This document shows positions 16,789 through 60,920 of a stretch of 64,000 nt of DNA, piece by piece. The stretch's first letter is position 1. Each line of letters opens with the position of its first letter. The notes beneath the pieces were generated by a model that saw only the letters and a program-made list of their open reading frames with translations, was not told the DNA's origin and searched no databases. Made by a program: the position numbers and the translations under genes. Source of the stretch: Natrarchaeobius chitinivorans (lineage in GTDB: Archaea; Halobacteriota; Halobacteria; Halobacteriales; Natrialbaceae); contig NZ_REGA01000003.1 in assembly GCF_003841505.1 (NCBI RefSeq), forward strand, positions 186,001 through 250,000, in the 5' to 3' direction.

Positions 16789-17215
16789 ACCCCCGTGTAC
16801 TCGCCGCGGACGGTAATAGTGTCGGGCAGCGTAGCAGCTCTCGAGAACGCGTTTCAGACGGATCGCTGTACCGACTTGCCGGGGAAATCCCGTCCCATTC
16901 CTGCTCGCACGACACTGACGGGCACCGGACCGTATCGAAGCGCCACTGCTCGGGAGATGTGACGTGAAACCGTCGAACGGAACGGAGTACGGGCTTCGAC
17001 CGAATTCATCGAAGCCGTCGGCCGTCGTCCGTCCGACGGAACGAAGCGGGCTGTCGAACGCGGACAGCACCGGTGGGAATACAGGGATGCACGGCGTGTG
17101 ACGTGCGAGTGAAGAGGGGAACGCGGAGTATATAAACCCTGTCCCTCCAGAGTGAAAGTGTAATCGCAGTACATGGCGGCGATGATCTCCTCGTCAGACG
17201 ACTGGACGACGGTCG
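16789..17215. other. 427-base gap without a convincing gene
   Basis: A TATA-like GTATATAAAC lies near 17128-17138, but no good gene follows on either strand at the expected distance. A minus-strand frame opens with an ATGA overlap at the gamma-glutamylcyclotransferase stop (MTTVVQSSDEEIIAAMYCDY), then becomes arginine-rich and unlike haloarchaeal protein. No repeat or RNA gene recognised. Confidence 0.4.
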
Positions 17216-21105: not shown

Positions 21106-21365
21106 ACACGGATCTACCGGCCGTGACGGGATAACACGGCACCGTTATTCCCGCCGGGTGGAAACACCAGCCGAATCGGGCGAACGGGTTCGGCCTCGCG
21201 GTCGGTGCCGCGGACGCACCGCGGTGATCGCCGGAGGCGACACCGGCCTCCCCGTCGGAATCGAACTCACACGGCCAATCGACTCCGCACACCGCCGGTT
21301 CCAATCGGACGGCCGCTCCGCTCGAGTCCGTCGTCGAACGGAGGAAACTCGTCCCGCTGGCTGAG

Positions 21366-21443
21366 ACGGATTATTGTAACTGGTTACCGGCGCACCCGCC
21401 GCCTGGGTCGCGGGTGTGCCGGCAATGGCTTACAGTAAACCGT
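21366..21443. repeat. R1 palindromic element, copy A
   Basis: Ends pair as ACGGATTATTGTAA against ACGGTTTACTGTAA (reverse complement of the right end), with a central stem CCGGCGCACCCGC / GCGGGTGTGCCGG. The element lies 22 bases 3' of the sepF stop codon. Confidence 0.8.
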
Positions 21444-21465
21444 ATGAGGGATTCCCTCGAGGCGA

Positions 21466-21828
21466 TCAGAACGACTGCCCGAGTTTCTCGCGGCTGATCC
21501 GGATGCCGGTGGGCGTGATGATCATCTGATCGTCGCCTTTCCGGACGATGTCGCCGTCGACCTCCTGTGCGACCTGGCGGAGTTCGTCGACGATGTGCTC
21601 GACGGTGCTGTCTTTGGTTCGCAGGCGTGTCACGTCTGCGATGACGATGTCGCCGTCGTAGATCGCTTCCTTGATGTCGATCGCGTCGGCCTGTCCGCCG
21701 ACCTCCGCGATGTGTACCTGCATGCTCGCGCCGGCCGAATCGGCCGCGACGTCGTCGAGATCCAGTTCGACGTAATCCTCGGCGGTTCGGGACTGATCCC
21801 CGCCGATGATCTTGCTCATAATTCCCAT
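21466..21828 (-). CDS. sepF: Archaeal SepF cell-division protein
   Basis: 120 residues. The N-terminal MGIMSKIIGG is the membrane-targeting amphipathic helix; an acidic linker (EDYVELDLDDVAAD) leads to the compact SepF alpha/beta domain (VHIAEVGGQADAIDIKEAIYDGDIVIADVTRL and IVDELRQVAQEVDGDIVRKGDDQMIITPTGIRISREK). In haloarchaea SepF tethers FtsZ2-dependent division machinery to the membrane. The gene is monocistronic here, with the R1 hairpin immediately after its stop. Confidence 0.93.
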   Translation of the reverse strand: MGIMSKIIGGDQSRTAEDYVELDLDDVAADSAGASMQVHIAEVGGQADAIDIKEAIYDGDIVIADVTRLRTKDSTVEHIVDELRQVAQEVDGDIVRKGDDQMIITPTGIRISREKLGQSF

Positions 21829-21917
21829 TGCCTGTAGGCACTGTCGCGGCGAGTATAGTTCTTACGTCAGACACAGTCACGGGGATGGATAGGAATCGGA
21901 CCCGAACGCTCGTCGGA

Positions 21918-22397
21918 TTAACCCGCGAACTCGTAGAGGTCGTCGCCGACGTGGTGCAAGGAGTCGACGACCTTTCCCTCGTCGCCGACCATCTCGGTCC
22001 CGTCCACTCGAGCGCGCCCGATCGCGAGTACCTTTCCGTGAGACTCCTCTGCGATGACGACAAGATCGTCCGGAGAGATGTCGTCGGTCGCCGCCGTAAT
22101 TCCGGGGCGCATTACGTCCGCGCCGTCGCTGACGAACGAGATCGCGCCCGTATCGACAGTCACGACCCGATCGTCGGGCTCGTAGGCGTTTGCCCCGCGA
22201 ACCGTCAGGAACGGATCCTCGTCGAAGTACGCGACCTGGGGCTCGCCGTCGATGAGGATCACTTCCCAGTCGGTGTCCTCGAACTCGACGCGTTCGTAGG
22301 CGTCTCCGTCCGGAGAAACGCCGAGTTGATCGGCGAGAGTCTCCTCTATGTCCGAGACGGCGTCGCTTCGAAGGTGGTGTCGAGACTTGACCTGCAT
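21918..22397 (-). CDS. PUA-domain RNA-binding protein
   Basis: 159 residues from ATG 22397 (MQVKSRHHLRSDAVSDIEE). The C-terminal 75 residues are a PUA domain (FLTVRGANAYEPDDRVVTVDTGAISFVSDGADVMRPGI, then DDLVVIAEESHGKVLAIGRARVDG), preceded by a domain of the archaeal MCT-1/Tma20-like type (EVILIDGEPQVAYFDEDPFLT). Such proteins bind structured RNA, and their eukaryotic relatives act in translation re-initiation. Monocistronic; substrate RNA unknown. Confidence 0.88.
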   Translation of the reverse strand: MQVKSRHHLRSDAVSDIEETLADQLGVSPDGDAYERVEFEDTDWEVILIDGEPQVAYFDEDPFLTVRGANAYEPDDRVVTVDTGAISFVSDGADVMRPGITAATDDISPDDLVVIAEESHGKVLAIGRARVDGTEMVGDEGKVVDSLHHVGDDLYEFAG

Positions 22398-22543
22398 ACG
22401 ACTGCTTCCCTCCGGACGCATTTAACGGATTAGATTCGTCCCAGGTCGAACCGATCGCGACACCGCGGGACGTCTCTCGTCCCGACCCTCCACCGCGTGA
22501 AACGCGAAGGTGATTATTCGGTCCCTCGAGTGGACTGGTCCGT

Positions 22544-23185
22544 ATGGTCAGGACGCTCGGCGGCGAGGGAACGGACCGGATGGAAGCGTTGAGTGACGGG
22601 CTGTTCGCGATCGTGCTCACGCTGTTGGTGTTGCAGTTCGACGTTCCCGACGTCCCGGCGGCGGCACTTCCCGGGGCGATCGCCGACCAGGAGACGCTGC
22701 TCGTCAGCTACTTGCTCAGTTTCGTGGTCGTCGGCATCTACTGGATCGTCCACCACAACCTCTTTCGATACATCGAGAGCCACGATCGGGTCCTACTGTG
22801 GCTGAACCTGCTGTTTTTGCTTTCGATATCGTTCCTTCCGTACCCGACGGAGGTGCTCGGTCTGTACGGAACGCCGTTCGCCTGGACGCTGTACGCGGTC
22901 AACTTCGTTCTCGTCGGCGTACTGTTGACGGCCGTCTGGAGCTACGCCGCTCGAGCGGGATTCACCGACGACCGGATCGACGATCGAACCGCGCGAATGG
23001 TTACGATTCGTGGGCTCATCACGCCGACCGTCTTCGCGCTGTCGATTCCCGTCGCAGCGGTCGCAGTTTCCGTCGCCTACTTCGTCCCCCTGTTGATCGC
23101 CCCGCTCCAGATGCTGTGGGTGCGATACTATCGGCGGGCGACCGAGGACGCCGACGGTGGTGGGCTGATCGACGAACTCGGGTAG
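22544..23185 (+). CDS. TMEM175/DUF1211 family potassium channel-like membrane protein
   Basis: 213 residues with six membrane helices. The signature RMEALSDGLFAIVLTLLVLQ (about 12-31) corresponds to the (F/L)SD..FAI..TLLVL motif that lines the pore in prokaryotic TMEM175 channels, with LSD in place of FSD. Further helices include LLVSYLLSFVVVGIYWIVHHNLF and VLLWLNLLFLLSISFLPYPTEVL. Single gene, followed by an R1 element 44 bases after its stop. Potassium conductance is inferred from the family. Confidence 0.85.
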   Translation: MVRTLGGEGTDRMEALSDGLFAIVLTLLVLQFDVPDVPAAALPGAIADQETLLVSYLLSFVVVGIYWIVHHNLFRYIESHDRVLLWLNLLFLLSISFLPYPTEVLGLYGTPFAWTLYAVNFVLVGVLLTAVWSYAARAGFTDDRIDDRTARMVTIRGLITPTVFALSIPVAAVAVSVAYFVPLLIAPLQMLWVRYYRRATEDADGGGLIDELG

Positions 23186-23228
23186 TCCCCGTTCGAACCC
23201 CCTCCAGCGTCGTCTTCGACGACTCCTG

Positions 23229-23310
23229 ATACGGTTTACTGTAAGTCATTACCGGCGCGACCGCGTCCCACCCTACGGTCGCGCCGGCGAATCGTTACAG
23301 CAATCCGTAT
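23229..23310. repeat. R1 palindromic element, copy B
   Basis: 82 bases with ends ATACGGTTTACTGTAA and TTACAGCAATCCGTAT and a perfect central stem CCGGCGCGACCG / CGGTCGCGCCGG. It lies 44 bases after the TMEM175-like gene. The next 14 bases (GAGCGATTCCCTCG) also match those after copy A (GAGGGATTCCCTCG). Confidence 0.88.
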
Positions 23311-23415
23311 GAGCGATTCCCTCGTGGTCCCGTGGAAACTGATCGGCCGAACTGACTGTGAACGACTCGGAAACGTGTGACAATTGCTAAATAGTAGCAC
23401 GGCGTTCGTTCATCC

Positions 23416-23709
23416 ATGTGGCCCTCCCGAAATCGCACGGCGACGGTCACGTGTCTCGCCTGCGGGGACGAGGTCTCCCGATCGACAGCCCGCGAGTACG
23501 ACAAGTACGGTGATCGCTGGGATCGGGAGGATAAGACGTTCGAACACCTCTGTAAAGACTGCTATACAGACCTGTGTCGCCAGCCTCGAGACGAACTCGA
23601 GGACCTCCTCGTCGAACTCGAGGCCGGCGAACGGGGCCAGAAGTCGTTTCTTTCGGGATACATCTCAGCGGTCGAGGACCGCTACGGAACGGTCGAAGAG
23701 GAGTCCTGA
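23416..23709 (+). CDS. Small zinc-ribbon-like haloarchaeal protein
   Basis: 97 residues. Two CxxC pairs, TCLACGDEV (about 13-18) and HLCKDCYTDLC (about 44-52), form a probable four-cysteine zinc site. The rest is helical and highly charged (QPRDELEDLLVELEAGERGQKSFLSGYISAVEDRYG). Small proteins of this build are abundant in haloarchaea and often regulate or bind partners. Specific role unknown. A CTAAATAG box lies about 24 bases upstream of the ATG. Confidence 0.8.
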   Translation: MWPSRNRTATVTCLACGDEVSRSTAREYDKYGDRWDREDKTFEHLCKDCYTDLCRQPRDELEDLLVELEAGERGQKSFLSGYISAVEDRYGTVEEES

Positions 23710-23752
23710 CCTCTCAGTTGTCCCGATTTCCGGCACGATCGCGACACACTCC

Positions 23753-23804
23753 TGATTGTGACGGTGCAGATCCATTCATGATTGTGACGATGCTGATCCA
23801 TTCA
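23753..23804 (+). repeat. Two 26-base tandem units
   Basis: Units at 23753-23778 and 23779-23804 begin TGATTGTGACGGTGCAGATC and TGATTGTGACGATGCTGATC and both end CATTCA (2 differences). They abut R1 copy C directly. Confidence 0.9.
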
Positions 23805-23884
23805 TACGATTTACAGTACGTCGTTTCCGGCACACCTGCGATCTGGGGGGCGGGTGCGCCGGTAATCGGTACGACAATCCGTAT
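23804..23884. repeat. R1 palindromic element, copy C
   Basis: 81 bases, ends ATACGATTTACAGTA and TACGACAATCCGTAT, central stem CCGGCACACCTGC / GCGGGTGCGCCGG. Lies 95 bases after the zinc-ribbon gene and 62 bases ahead of the RNB nuclease gene. Confidence 0.82.
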
Positions 23885-23946
23885 CGGTCCGTGGTGCATC
23901 GACCTTTCCCGACACGACTTTCACACCCACGTCCGTAGACCCCCCC

Positions 23947-25245
23947 ATGAGCGACGACGAACAGGCCGAAGCCGGTACGGCAGAAGGCCAGGGCCCCATC
24001 GAAATCTCCGAGGACCTCTCCCGTCACCTGGAGAACAAGCGCGAGGAACTGTTCGAGAAGTTCGAAATCCGAGACGAGTTCCCCGAAGCGGTACTCGAGG
24101 AGGCCACGGAGCTAACCGGCGACGTTCAGGCCGACATCGACGCAGCGATCGACGACCGCGAGGACCTCCGCGAGCTAACGACGTGGACGACCGACCCGAT
24201 CGACGCCCAGGACTTCGACGACGCCATCTCCATCGAGGAGCGAGACGAGGAGTTCGTCCTCTGGGTACACATCGCTGACGTCACCCACTACGTTCACCCC
24301 GAGTCTGCGATGTGGGCCGAGGCAGTCGAGCGAAGCAATACGGTCTATCTCCCTGGCTACACGATCCACATGTTGCCGCCGGTGCTCGCCGAATCCGTCT
24401 GCTCGCTCGTTCCCGACGAAGAGCGCTTCGCCCACACCGTCGAGATGCACCTCGACAAGGAGACGCTCACCTACGAGACGATCGACATCTACAAGTCCGT
24501 CATCGAGTCGGACGAACGACTCACCTACGGCGAGGCCGAAAACCGCCTCGAGGACCCCGACGCGCCGCTTCACGAGGAAAACGCCCTCGTCCACGAACTC
24601 GCCGACCGGATGCACGAACAGCGCAAGGAAGACGGTTCGCTCGTCCTGAACCCCTCCCGGGACCGTGCCCACACCATCATCGAGGAGTGCATGCTGAAAG
24701 CGAACAAGGCCGTCACGCACGAGTTGATGTGGAGCCGCGGCGTCGAAGCAATGTATCGAGTCCACCCTCAGCCCAGCCCCGACGAGTGGTCGAAGGCGCT
24801 CCAGGAAATCCAGGACCTAGACGGCGTCTCGATCCCCGGCGACACCTGGGACGATCCGCGCAAAGCCGTCAACGCGACGCTCGAGGAGGCCCCCGGTCGG
24901 CAACTCGACAAGATCCAGTGGGCGGTGATGAAGGTGATGCCGCGTGCCCGGTACATGAACGATCCGTTCGGCGGTCATCACGCGCTGAACTTCGAGATTT
25001 ACGGCCACTTCACCAGCCCGATCCGCCGCCTCTCCGATCTGATCAACCACTGGATCGTCTACCAGAACGACGTCCCCGAAACCCTGGTCGAACTCTGCGA
25101 TCGCGCGAGCGACAAGCAAAAGGACGCCGAACAGTGCGAACGCGAGTACAAGACGTTCCTCCAGGAAGTTGGCCTCGATCCGATGGCGGTCAACAACCGA
25201 GGAGTCGAGGTCGTCGACGAAGCCGAAGCCGAGAAAACGTTGTAA
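23947..25245 (+). CDS. RNB-domain exoribonuclease (RNase II/R family)
   Basis: 432 residues. The RNB catalytic domain fills most of the protein: TTDPIDAQDFDDAISIEE (about 80-97) holds the Mg2+-binding aspartates, HIADVTHYVHPESAMWAEA and SNTVYLPGYTIHMLPPVLAE follow, and the C-terminal half has HHALNFEIYGHFTSPIRRLSDLINHW, the conserved R-R-L-x-D motif. The protein lacks the cold-shock and S1 domains of bacterial RNase R, as usual in haloarchaea. It would degrade RNA 3' to 5'. The TAA stop shares its last base with the R2 element. Confidence 0.92.
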   Translation: MSDDEQAEAGTAEGQGPIEISEDLSRHLENKREELFEKFEIRDEFPEAVLEEATELTGDVQADIDAAIDDREDLRELTTWTTDPIDAQDFDDAISIEERDEEFVLWVHIADVTHYVHPESAMWAEAVERSNTVYLPGYTIHMLPPVLAESVCSLVPDEERFAHTVEMHLDKETLTYETIDIYKSVIESDERLTYGEAENRLEDPDAPLHEENALVHELADRMHEQRKEDGSLVLNPSRDRAHTIIEECMLKANKAVTHELMWSRGVEAMYRVHPQPSPDEWSKALQEIQDLDGVSIPGDTWDDPRKAVNATLEEAPGRQLDKIQWAVMKVMPRARYMNDPFGGHHALNFEIYGHFTSPIRRLSDLINHWIVYQNDVPETLVELCDRASDKQKDAEQCEREYKTFLQEVGLDPMAVNNRGVEVVDEAEAEKTL

Positions 25246-25354
25246 TACTGTCGGACAGAACTATTTGAAGATCGGTCGCTCTCCTGCGGCCGTCTCCGAT
25301 GGTGACGGCCGCGAATTCGCGACCGACTTCTCACTGACTTCTGTCCGACAGTAT
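25245..25354. repeat. R2 inverted-repeat element, copy 1 (110 bp)
   Basis: Perfect 16-base terminal inverted repeats (ATACTGTCGGACAGAA) enclose an internal palindrome around GCGGCCGTC / GACGGCCGC and GAATTC. Exactly the same length as the second copy at 37562-37671, in opposite orientation. Begins on the last base of the RNB nuclease stop codon. Confidence 0.92.
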
Positions 25355-25424
25355 AAGCGACCGCTCGCGCAGCGGTCTTCGGATAAGAAAAACGAAAAGA
25401 GCGGGGACGCACCGCCACAGACGT

Positions 25425-34657: not shown

Positions 34658-34737
34658 ATACGGTCCGCTGGCAGTCGTTACCGGTGTGACCGGTGACCGC
34701 TCGCGTCACACCGGTACACAGTGAGGACTTCCCGTGT
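34658..34737. repeat. R1 palindromic element, copy E (diverged)
   Basis: 80 bases. Left end ATACGGTCCGCTGGCAGTC, right end ACTTCCCGTGT, with a perfect central stem ACCGGTGTGAC / GTCACACCGGT. The stem sequence differs from other copies but pairing is retained. It lies 22 bases 3' of the mutS stop, the same spacing as copy A behind sepF. Confidence 0.65.
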
Positions 34738-42121: not shown

Positions 42122-42213
42122 TATAGTAGCCACTGAACGTCACTGCACACCCGATCGCCAGACTGATCGGCGATCGGTGTGTAAACCGTTTCAGTTGTTA
42201 CGATAATCGGAAC
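42122..42213. repeat. R3 MITE-like palindromic element, copy 1
   Basis: 92 bases with ends TATAGTAGCCACTGAACG and GTTTCAGTTGTTACGATA, forming a long imperfect palindrome whose arms include CACCCGATCGCC and CGGCGATCGGTGTG. No coding content. Copies 2 and 3 are at 51072 and 51150. Confidence 0.82.
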
Positions 42214-59071: not shown

Positions 59072-60040
59072 GTAGGATCGCTAGCCGAGGCTTGATTTCG
59101 GTGTCGCCACTGATCCAGCCGCCAGTGAGAAACCGGGACACGGCGGTTGATCCTACGGATATCTGACCGTTCGGCGAAGATTATAGACGGCACATTTGAG
59201 CACCATCTCGCGGAACTCCAGATGCCAGCTTCGCGCACGCACGGCGGAGCCGAGCGTGCGCTTGAGGCTTGAGAAGACGGTTTCTACCATCCAGCGGCGG
59301 TTGTATCGATCACGATCCATGCGGGCGTTATGAGCGTGATCGAGCGCCCAGTAGATGCGATGTTTGATCAGTGGACGAATCCCGTTTGCGCGAAGTTCGT
59401 CTCGGAATGCTTTATCGTCGTAACCACGGTCTGCGGCCACTGAGAGCAGGTCACCCGCATTTCGGCGGGTGACCTGCGGGCCAATTCTGAAATCGGATGG
59501 CGTTTTCGTCGAGATGTGGACGTCGGTGACGTACAGCGTTTCGACGTCAACTAAGGCGGTGACTTTCAGCGTCCGAACACGATAATGCGCCCGCTGCGCG
59601 TAGTGGCGTGACGGCTGGTCACGGTCGAATCCCGTTGAATCGATGGCAGCGTGACCAGTGTGTTTCTCGGCTGATTCGCCGAGAAACGCACGGTACGTCT
59701 TCATCGAGATCTGCTCGAACCAGTCACGGAGCACGGTGAAGTGAGGAAGGCGTGTGAGCCCGATTTCTTCGAGAATGCCGGGCATTTCACTGAGCAGGTC
59801 TATCGTCTGGCGGTAGGACGTTCCAAGCTCGATTCGGAGTGCTTGCAGGGTGAGCATCGCCCACTCGGCGAACCCGCCACCCCCTTCGGGGTCGGCGGGT
59901 TCGTCCGGGTTCACGACAACGTTTTTAGCTTTCGTGACCGATTCTCGGGTGAGGAGGCGGAATTCCGACTTCACAACACTCTGCCTCTTCGCTTTCTACG
60001 GAGATAACGCGATTGAGGCGGCGCTGTCTAGCGATCCTAC
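59072..60040 (-). mobile_element. IS5-family insertion sequence
   Basis: About 969 bases with terminal inverted repeats GTAGGATCGCTAGCC (left) and GTAGGATCGCTAGACAG (reverse complement of the right end), enclosing one transposase gene. Flanks contain R4-like sequence (GTCGTGCTGAATTCATGC on the left, TATATTCAGCACGC on the right), so it probably inserted into an R4 element. Confidence 0.88.
59153..59974 (-). CDS. IS5-family transposase
   Basis: 273 residues from a GTG at 59974. The DDE catalytic triad is complete: GHAAIDSTGFDRDQPS (first D, about 112), LSVAADRGYDDKAFRDEL (second D, about 185) and NRRWMVETVFSSLKRTLGS (E, about 232). The N-terminal FAEWAMLTLQALRIELGTSYRQTIDLLSEM is the family's DNA-recognition region. 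Frame is intact, so the element may still move. Confidence 0.92.
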   Translation of the reverse strand: MKSEFRLLTRESVTKAKNVVVNPDEPADPEGGGGFAEWAMLTLQALRIELGTSYRQTIDLLSEMPGILEEIGLTRLPHFTVLRDWFEQISMKTYRAFLGESAEKHTGHAAIDSTGFDRDQPSRHYAQRAHYRVRTLKVTALVDVETLYVTDVHISTKTPSDFRIGPQVTRRNAGDLLSVAADRGYDDKAFRDELRANGIRPLIKHRIYWALDHAHNARMDRDRYNRRWMVETVFSSLKRTLGSAVRARSWHLEFREMVLKCAVYNLRRTVRYP

Positions 60041-60191
60041 AGAGCACTATATTCAGCACGCTATTCTTGACAGCTATCGGTGAGGCCGATTGCTGCCCTA
60101 TTACTCTCTCAGCCTGTACTGAACGCGAGTTTCACACCTCAGATTGAATAAACAATCAGTAGTACCAACTACTGATACGATACTCCCTCTC

Positions 60192-60273
60192 ATACGGATT
60201 ACTGTAAGTCATTGCCGGCGCGACCGCAGGACGTGACGCGGTCGCGCCGGAAAATCGTTACAGCAATCCGTAT
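60192..60273. repeat. R1 palindromic element, copy D
   Basis: 82 bases, ends ATACGGATTACTGTAA and TTACAGCAATCCGTAT, perfect central stem GCCGGCGCGACCGC / GCGGTCGCGCCGG. Its last base is the first base of the reverse-strand stop codon of the HTH_10 gene (60273-60275). Same length as copy B. Confidence 0.9.
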
Positions 60274-60920
60274 CAGAACTCGAGGCGCTCCACCACGCGC
60301 CGTTCGGCCTTGCGGAGGTGTTCGGCGGCGGTCCCCGGCGCACAGCCGAGTTCGGCGGCGACGTCCTCGACGCTCGCCTCCCGGGGAACGGCGAAGTAGC
60401 CGAGGTCGCGGGCGATCCGGAGCGCCTCGCGCTGTCTGTCGGTCAGCGTTTCGACCGCGCGGCCGCCGCGGTACTCACCGACGCGCTCGACGGTCGTCTC
60501 GATTCCGTCGGGGACCGCCTCGAGTGCGGCCTGGATATCGTCCGACTTGCCGACCAGACCGAACCGCACCGAGAGGTCCATCCGGTACTCGAGCGGCGGG
60601 ATCGGTACCAGGCTCCCGCGCGCGAACGCCCCGATGAGTTGTTCGCCGAGTTCGCCGGGTTCCTCACGAACGTAGACGTAGAACCCGTCGCCGTCCGCAT
60701 CCGTGACGTCGACCGTGAGGGGAGTCTCGAGTTCCGCGAGTCGCTCGCGGTAGGCGGCTCGATCCCCGACGACGTGAAAGAGAAAGACGTTGTAGCCGTC
60801 GTGAGCGTGGTTCCAGTTGACCAGTCGATACCGGCTGAACGAGTCGTGTTCGGCGGCGAAGCGGTGCATCGGGTGGGCGTTCTCCGGGCCGTGTTGGAGG
60901 GTCAGTCGAACCGACTTCAT
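60273..60920 (-). CDS. HTH_10 (bacterio-opsin activator-type) transcriptional regulator
   Basis: 215 residues. A sensory N-terminal domain (LTLQHGPENAHPMHRFAAEHDSFSRYRLVNWNHAHDGYNVFLFHVVGD) with a ligand-binding look, then the C-terminal HTH_10: LTDRQREALRIARDLGYFAVPREASVEDVAAELGCAPGTAAEHLRKAERRVVERL. Divergent, with an 86-base gap, from the solitary nuoCD gene; this is the best candidate target. The TATA box ATTTATATCA lies about 25 bases from its ATG. Confidence 0.9.
   Translation of the reverse strand: MKSVRLTLQHGPENAHPMHRFAAEHDSFSRYRLVNWNHAHDGYNVFLFHVVGDRAAYRERLAELETPLTVDVTDADGDGFYVYVREEPGELGEQLIGAFARGSLVPIPPLEYRMDLSVRFGLVGKSDDIQAALEAVPDGIETTVERVGEYRGGRAVETLTDRQREALRIARDLGYFAVPREASVEDVAAELGCAPGTAAEHLRKAERRVVERLEF

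Follow-up and report, generated by a model that had tools for sequence, protein, structure and literature searches.

The described haloarchaeal repeats closest to the element considered here are the small mobile repeats (SMRs) of Haloquadratum walsbyi, of which SMR-A and SMR-B are 80-110 bp long, have prominent inverted repeats and occur in up to 54 copies (PMC3119063). SMRs carry no transposase, have no matching transposon and are found inserted in palindromic stretches of other elements; they were described as being without target duplication, and their mobilisation as enigmatic (PMC3119063). The element in question, R1, was examined in a 64,000-nt stretch of Natrarchaeobius chitinivorans (NZ_REGA01000003.1, 186,001-250,000; GCF_003841505.1), hereafter the window, to which all positions refer. 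R1 works like a miniature inverted-repeat transposable element (MITE). It resembles SMRs in size, in inverted repeats and in inserting into other palindromic elements, and it carries no transposase; no transposon matching it turned up in the sequences searched here. Going by the description of SMRs, it differs from them in duplicating the triplet TCA or TGA (TSA), in its targeting of TGA stop codons and in its family-wide occurrence in Natrialbaceae.

ERIC (enterobacterial repetitive intergenic consensus) and other palindromic bacterial MITEs are short inverted-repeat elements that duplicate their target, lie mostly between genes and can reach copy numbers in the hundreds (PMC10969869). R1 shares all of these traits. 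The sequence of ERIC differs from that of R1. Stop codons, or their targeting, are not mentioned in the 2024 review of prokaryotic MITEs, in which the nearest parallel is QMITE2 of Coxiella, found mainly in 3' untranslated regions (PMC10969869). Repetitive extragenic palindromes (REPs) are 20-40 bp long, carry GTAG or CGTC tags and are linked to REP-associated tyrosine transposases (RAYTs) (PMC2817692, PMC3733652). R1 is, like REPs and bacterial interspersed mosaic elements (BIMEs), an extragenic palindrome of high copy number, but it is 80 bp long and duplicates its target, Y1 enzymes do not track its copies, and the REP combination of 20-40 bp length, tag and RAYT/Y1 link was not found in it. 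IS1272 is a full insertion sequence (IS) that interacts with inverted repeats and replaces them (PMC5678879); R1 is like it in involving inverted repeats and unlike it in being non-autonomous and duplicating TSA. The literature searched contained no description of R1, no exact match to its motif and no paper on these archaea giving its end sequences.

R1 is interpreted as a non-autonomous palindromic transposable element, of the MITE or small-mobile-repeat type, that is moved in trans and duplicates TCA or TGA at the target CCGTC-TSA-GACGG (probability about 0.85). A transposition-derived origin had been raised in the original prediction, and is supported by the 3-bp target duplications, by insertions nested in an element whose empty site is known, by a copy number in the hundreds, and by orthologous stops that lack the element. 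The five copies on which that prediction was based were all recovered by cmsearch (E 1e-24 to 1e-14) with a covariance model built from eleven copies, and their stated distances to stops held; of their borders, only those of copy A needed revision, as it extends two bases further at each end. The letters D and E were assigned from the stems that the prediction quoted.

21364..21445, minus strand: R1 copy A, E 5e-23, 82 nt as modelled with the TACGG..CCGTA element proper within; direct repeat TGA 21362-21364 / TGA 21445-21447; 20 nt downstream of the sepF stop
23229..23310, plus strand: R1 copy B, E 6.5e-24; direct repeat TGA 23227-23229 / TGA 23310-23312; 43 nt past the upstream stop
23804..23884, plus strand: R1 copy C, decayed, E 1e-20; decayed duplication TCA 23802-23804 / TCG 23884-23886; 94 nt past the upstream stop
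34658..34737, plus strand: R1 copy E, E 9e-15, stem CCGGTGTGACC; decayed flanks CGA / TGA; 22 nt past the mutS stop
60192..60273, plus strand: R1 copy D, E 1.5e-24; direct repeat TCA 60190-60192 / TCA 60273-60275; touches a stop
60273..60920, minus strand: HTH_10 / HVO_0513_N regulator gene (Pfam PF04967, PF24278), whose stop codon is the duplicated target of copy D

The statistics were drawn from 1.19 Mb of the organism's own genome and 0.8 Mb of relatives. The same C or G stood on both sides in 38 of 39 strong copies and, since an inverted repeat would show opposite letters, the flanking TCA or TGA is a direct repeat; all three bases were intact in 80 of 108 copies with matched ends. When inverted-repeat elements with equal flanking triplets were sought de novo, 71 had the pattern TNA, versus 0-33 for each of ten other patterns. 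The consensus target, derived from insertions away from stops, is the palindrome CCGTC-TSA-GACGG, which looks like R1 ends abutting a TSA, a likeness that accounts for tandem and nested arrays. Insertion was seen within a second palindromic family, R2, which has a representative in the window:

25246..25353, plus strand: R2 (TACTGTCGGACAGAA..TTCTGTCCGACAGTA), a family whose copies serve as R1 targets

Four R1 copies (C14, C2, C28, C11) interrupt R2 at one identical TCA, in both orientations, and most R2 copies are uninterrupted there and constitute the empty site, so that R1 must have inserted with duplication. R2 itself, with about 40 copies in the genome, makes TNA duplications with any central base; in the window copy the duplicated triplet is TAA (25243-25245 / 25354-25356), the stop codon with which the RNB gene at 23947-25245 ends. 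A further palindromic family (TAGGGATTATCG..) was observed inserted in the TCA of R1's own GTCATT (L199, L206, L211, near position 1500).

Exact matches to TSATACGGNTTRCTGT numbered 353 in the genome and none for the reversed pattern, and the repeat is therefore not due to chance. The covariance model found at least 150 copies in the genome; 99 at E < 1e-3 in 830 kb suggest, by extrapolation, a whole-genome total of about 500. Among 61 related genomes R1 was present in 32, in most genera of the same family and in many cases with at least 75 copies, and was nearly missing from other families; G015, G016 and G021 are rich in it, and G009, G013, G014, G026 and G027 are free of it. Matches on named plasmids were all from Natrialbaceae (Natrinema, Natrialba magadii, Natribaculum and Halomontanus), and it is on such named matches that the family assignment rests. 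The suggested search of haloarchaeal genomes thus yielded a large family, with many copies that carry covarying pairs.

What is new and unexpected is that the target duplication coincides with a TGA stop codon: 53 of 131 copies in the genome begin exactly at the stop codon of the neighbouring gene, TGA in all but one, as called by a hexamer-trained gene finder. Because the stop at the copy's edge is the duplicated TSA, the gene stays intact. No gene end lay 1-11 nt before any of these 131 copies, and none of them was inside a gene. The enrichment after stop codons that had been expected was confirmed in sharper form. R1 occupied 8.5% of TSA sites at stops (Fisher 9e-28), 2.4% of those up to 30 nt after stops, 2.1% at 31-100 nt, 0.49% beyond 100 nt, 0.45% of those that no 3' end faces, and 0 of the 17,572 that are coding; with target score taken into account the stop effect persisted and stayed the largest (logit 2.53). 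It was replicated in two other genera, with 11 of 39 copies flush in G016 (p 0.002) and 12 of 17 in G021 (p 2e-7), the latter genome also having one apparent copy inside a predicted gene. Among six plasmid matches, all from Natrialbaceae, the deposited coding sequence ends exactly on the repeat in three, namely Natrinema thermotolerans (archease), Natrialba magadii (oxidoreductase) and Halomontanus rarus (PHP protein); on two other plasmids examined it does not. In 19 of 24 pairs the orthologue, which lacks the element, had a C-terminal end at most two residues away, so that occupied stops are mostly ancestral and not truncations. Copy D in the window is an example: the minus-strand regulator gene ends exactly on the duplication, with the right-hand TCA of the copy as its TGA stop codon, and the protein ends in RVVERLEF here and in RVMGRLEF, at the same residue, in a sister without the element. 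The bias may reflect targeting or selection.

One subfamily departs from this rule, and is represented in the window:

42123..42204, plus strand: sister subfamily 3 copy (ATAGTAGCCACTGAA..), E 1.9e-7, with different arms and the same internal-loop motif

Subfamily 3 is flanked by TA, usually within CTAG, and no copy of it was flush with a stop, which indicates that the stop bias goes with TGA-containing targets.

In form R1 is an 80-bp, non-coding, near-complete palindrome, TACGG...CCGTA, with terminal inverted repeats as in MITEs and a single imperfect hairpin. Its layout is TACGG[T/A]TTACTGTAA-GTCATT-nCCGGCGCACCC..loop..GGGTGCGCCGGT-(AAATCG or ACACAG)-TTACAG[C/T]AATCCGTA, and it contains a conserved asymmetric internal loop of GTCATT opposite AATCG or ACAG. 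The subfamilies differ in their arms (CCGGAGCGACCG; CCGGTCGATCGC with TGCTATG/CATAGCA; ATAGTAGCCACTGAA with CACACCCGATCGCC; ATACTACCGGCTGTAA with CAAGATTCTCGCC) and have in common the unpaired strand GTCATT or GTCTTT. The idea that the internal loop forms a kink-turn was abandoned, as the alternation of AATCG and ACAG on the 3' strand breaks the tandem G-A pairs (by eye). Some aberrant forms were also seen: a 23-bp remnant (L204 1501-1527) consists of two fused R1 ends (ATACGGATTACAGTAAACCGTAT) and resembles a hairpin deletion, a chimeric end (G000:C3:111428, minus strand, locus L065) joins the family-1 outer arm TACGGTTTACTGTAA to a family-3-like inner stem CGCACACCGATCGC between TAA flanks, and at G000:C1:50693 (L037) and C1:329092 (L051) subfamily 3 ends are followed by other interiors (..GCGGTTCGGAGCG.. 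units) in place of the usual hairpin.

The original prediction had read a stem that varies between copies and still pairs as selection for the hairpin. In an alignment of 73 copies both sides had changed in 23 of 28 pairs, giving significant covariation, with 206 two-sided-change cells where shuffling gave 58 +/- 6 and slid controls 30-60, although copies cluster in subfamilies and the 206 cells are thus few events counted many times. The compensatory changes fall between subfamilies, each of which re-pairs. Single copies show no such constraint, copy-specific changes being as frequent at paired (1.16 per site) as at unpaired positions (1.19) and mostly pair-breaking, whereas a need of host mRNAs for the hairpin should have preserved pairs in each copy. 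The hairpin thus appears to be maintained in the propagating lineage and not copy by copy for host mRNA. Strong folding of the RNA (z about -2 to -10), together with the covariation and the seat of copies right at stops, is nevertheless consistent with the further proposal of a host-selected 3' hairpin or terminator, retained behind genes to end or protect mRNAs. This was made very unlikely by several observations besides the unconstrained decay of single copies. A tract of at least five T followed the element in 1 of 53 cases (34 of 984 for ordinary stops) and was never found inside it (0 of 53), so that the U-tract of an intrinsic terminator is missing; orientation relative to the stop-flush gene was mixed (19:34, p 0.053); G-U and A-C mismatches were equal on the gene's sense strand (28:32, or 19:21 without one pair); and nested and tandem copies exist. 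No Rfam family matched the window at gathering scores. A structural chromosomal repeat that binds a nucleoid protein or gyrase and has spread through gene conversion would share the high copy number and palindromic form of REPs and BIMEs; target duplications and empty sites indicate insertion and not conversion, and with the unconstrained decay render this origin extremely improbable.

Read in the element's own frame, G-U mismatches do exceed A-C (43:21, p 0.008 without pair 23-60), in cells that are not independent, which weakly suggests that one of its strands matters in folded form. Single-strand hairpin mobility by an HUH enzyme (RAYT- or IS200-like) or a recombinase, as for REPs or attC sites, would fit this excess, the complete palindrome with its conserved asymmetric loop, and the failure to find a DDE partner; the two TSA copies would then be a target and an element-borne cleavage site. 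The matched repeats of R2, however, carry all four central bases, as a true duplication predicts. A Y1 transposase was also rejected as mobiliser, since its occurrence across genomes does not follow R1 copy number (G001, with at least 75 copies, lacks a Y1_Tnp match), and single-strand mobility is accordingly judged unlikely.

For transposition in trans by way of true target duplication, several points tell against the interpretation. In R1 considered by itself, a TSA belonging to the element could give the appearance of a duplication, against which the R2 repeats TAA, TCA, TGA and TTA argue, and copies that entered next to older remnants at one stop may inflate the stop counts to an unquantified extent. 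No autonomous element or transposase gene with R1 ends was found in scans of 830 kb and of 1.2 Mb of the organism's own genome. An orphan-end pattern in 61 genomes gave 23 orphan ends, all decayed or nested palindromes, and a stricter pattern gave one chance match, in Flavobacterium, in a genome collection from which near relatives may be missing. IS30 was absent in the genomes searched, and IS5_3 (IS1031-like IS5) gave only sub-threshold matches, with none in R1-rich G015 (at least 75 near-identical copies); neither family showed a link to R1. Scans of the own genome for solitary ends and for long-range TNA/inverted-repeat pairs returned only chance or nested repeats, phage records held no R1 match, and eleven IMG/VR pattern matches were dismissed as chance, having no second end and, in ten cases, low GC. 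A parent transposon sharing only a few end bases would escape these searches.

Duplications of TNA and TA recall IS5 elements of the IS1031/IS427 type. An ordinary TNA- or TA-duplicating IS5-type element acting in trans and sharing few end bases would amount to the favoured explanation with a known enzyme, and IS5 transposases are present; given that IS5_3 never exceeded the cut-off, this is a possible, if somewhat unlikely, identity for the mobiliser. An IS5-family transposase gene (59153-59974, minus strand) adjoins copy D, and its element, which has ends TGCTYTGTAGGATCGCTAG and is the only full copy in the genome, was rejected as the R1 parent, the ends being unrelated.

On the preferred interpretation, an enzyme acting in trans would insert R1 at the palindromic CCGTC-TSA-GACGG, with duplication of the central TCA or TGA. 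At a TGA stop codon this duplication restores the stop and leaves the gene unharmed, and such sites fill preferentially, on this view through target sequence, position and tolerance combined. The hairpin and asymmetric loop would serve mobility, and the simplest reason for their persistence in the propagating lineage would be recognition by the mobilising enzyme, of whatever transposase type. More tentatively, and with some doubt, a host-encoded enzyme not yet described could move the hairpin elements of Natrialbaceae (R1 subfamilies, R2 and others) into stop codons by recognising their folded form, with no autonomous transposon involved; if so, this would be a stop-codon-directed, gene-sparing mobility system.

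The genes next to the window copies encode SepF (A), a TMEM175-like protein (B), a DUF7562 protein and RNB (C), MutS (E) and the HTH_10 regulator (D). One marginal match completes the features of the window:

16856..16935, minus strand: decayed R1-like match, E 0.0033

In summary, duplication of a stop codon allows harmless entry at a gene boundary, which explains how hundreds of copies are accommodated in a gene-dense genome, and gives a precise rule of insertion at gene ends. Compensatory changes in palindromic repeats, by the same example, need not signal a host RNA function. The finding also raises anew the enigma of how small haloarchaeal repeats are mobilised, and a search for the enzyme becomes testable through the duplication, the target consensus, the empty sites of nested insertions and the near-identical copies that relatives carry.
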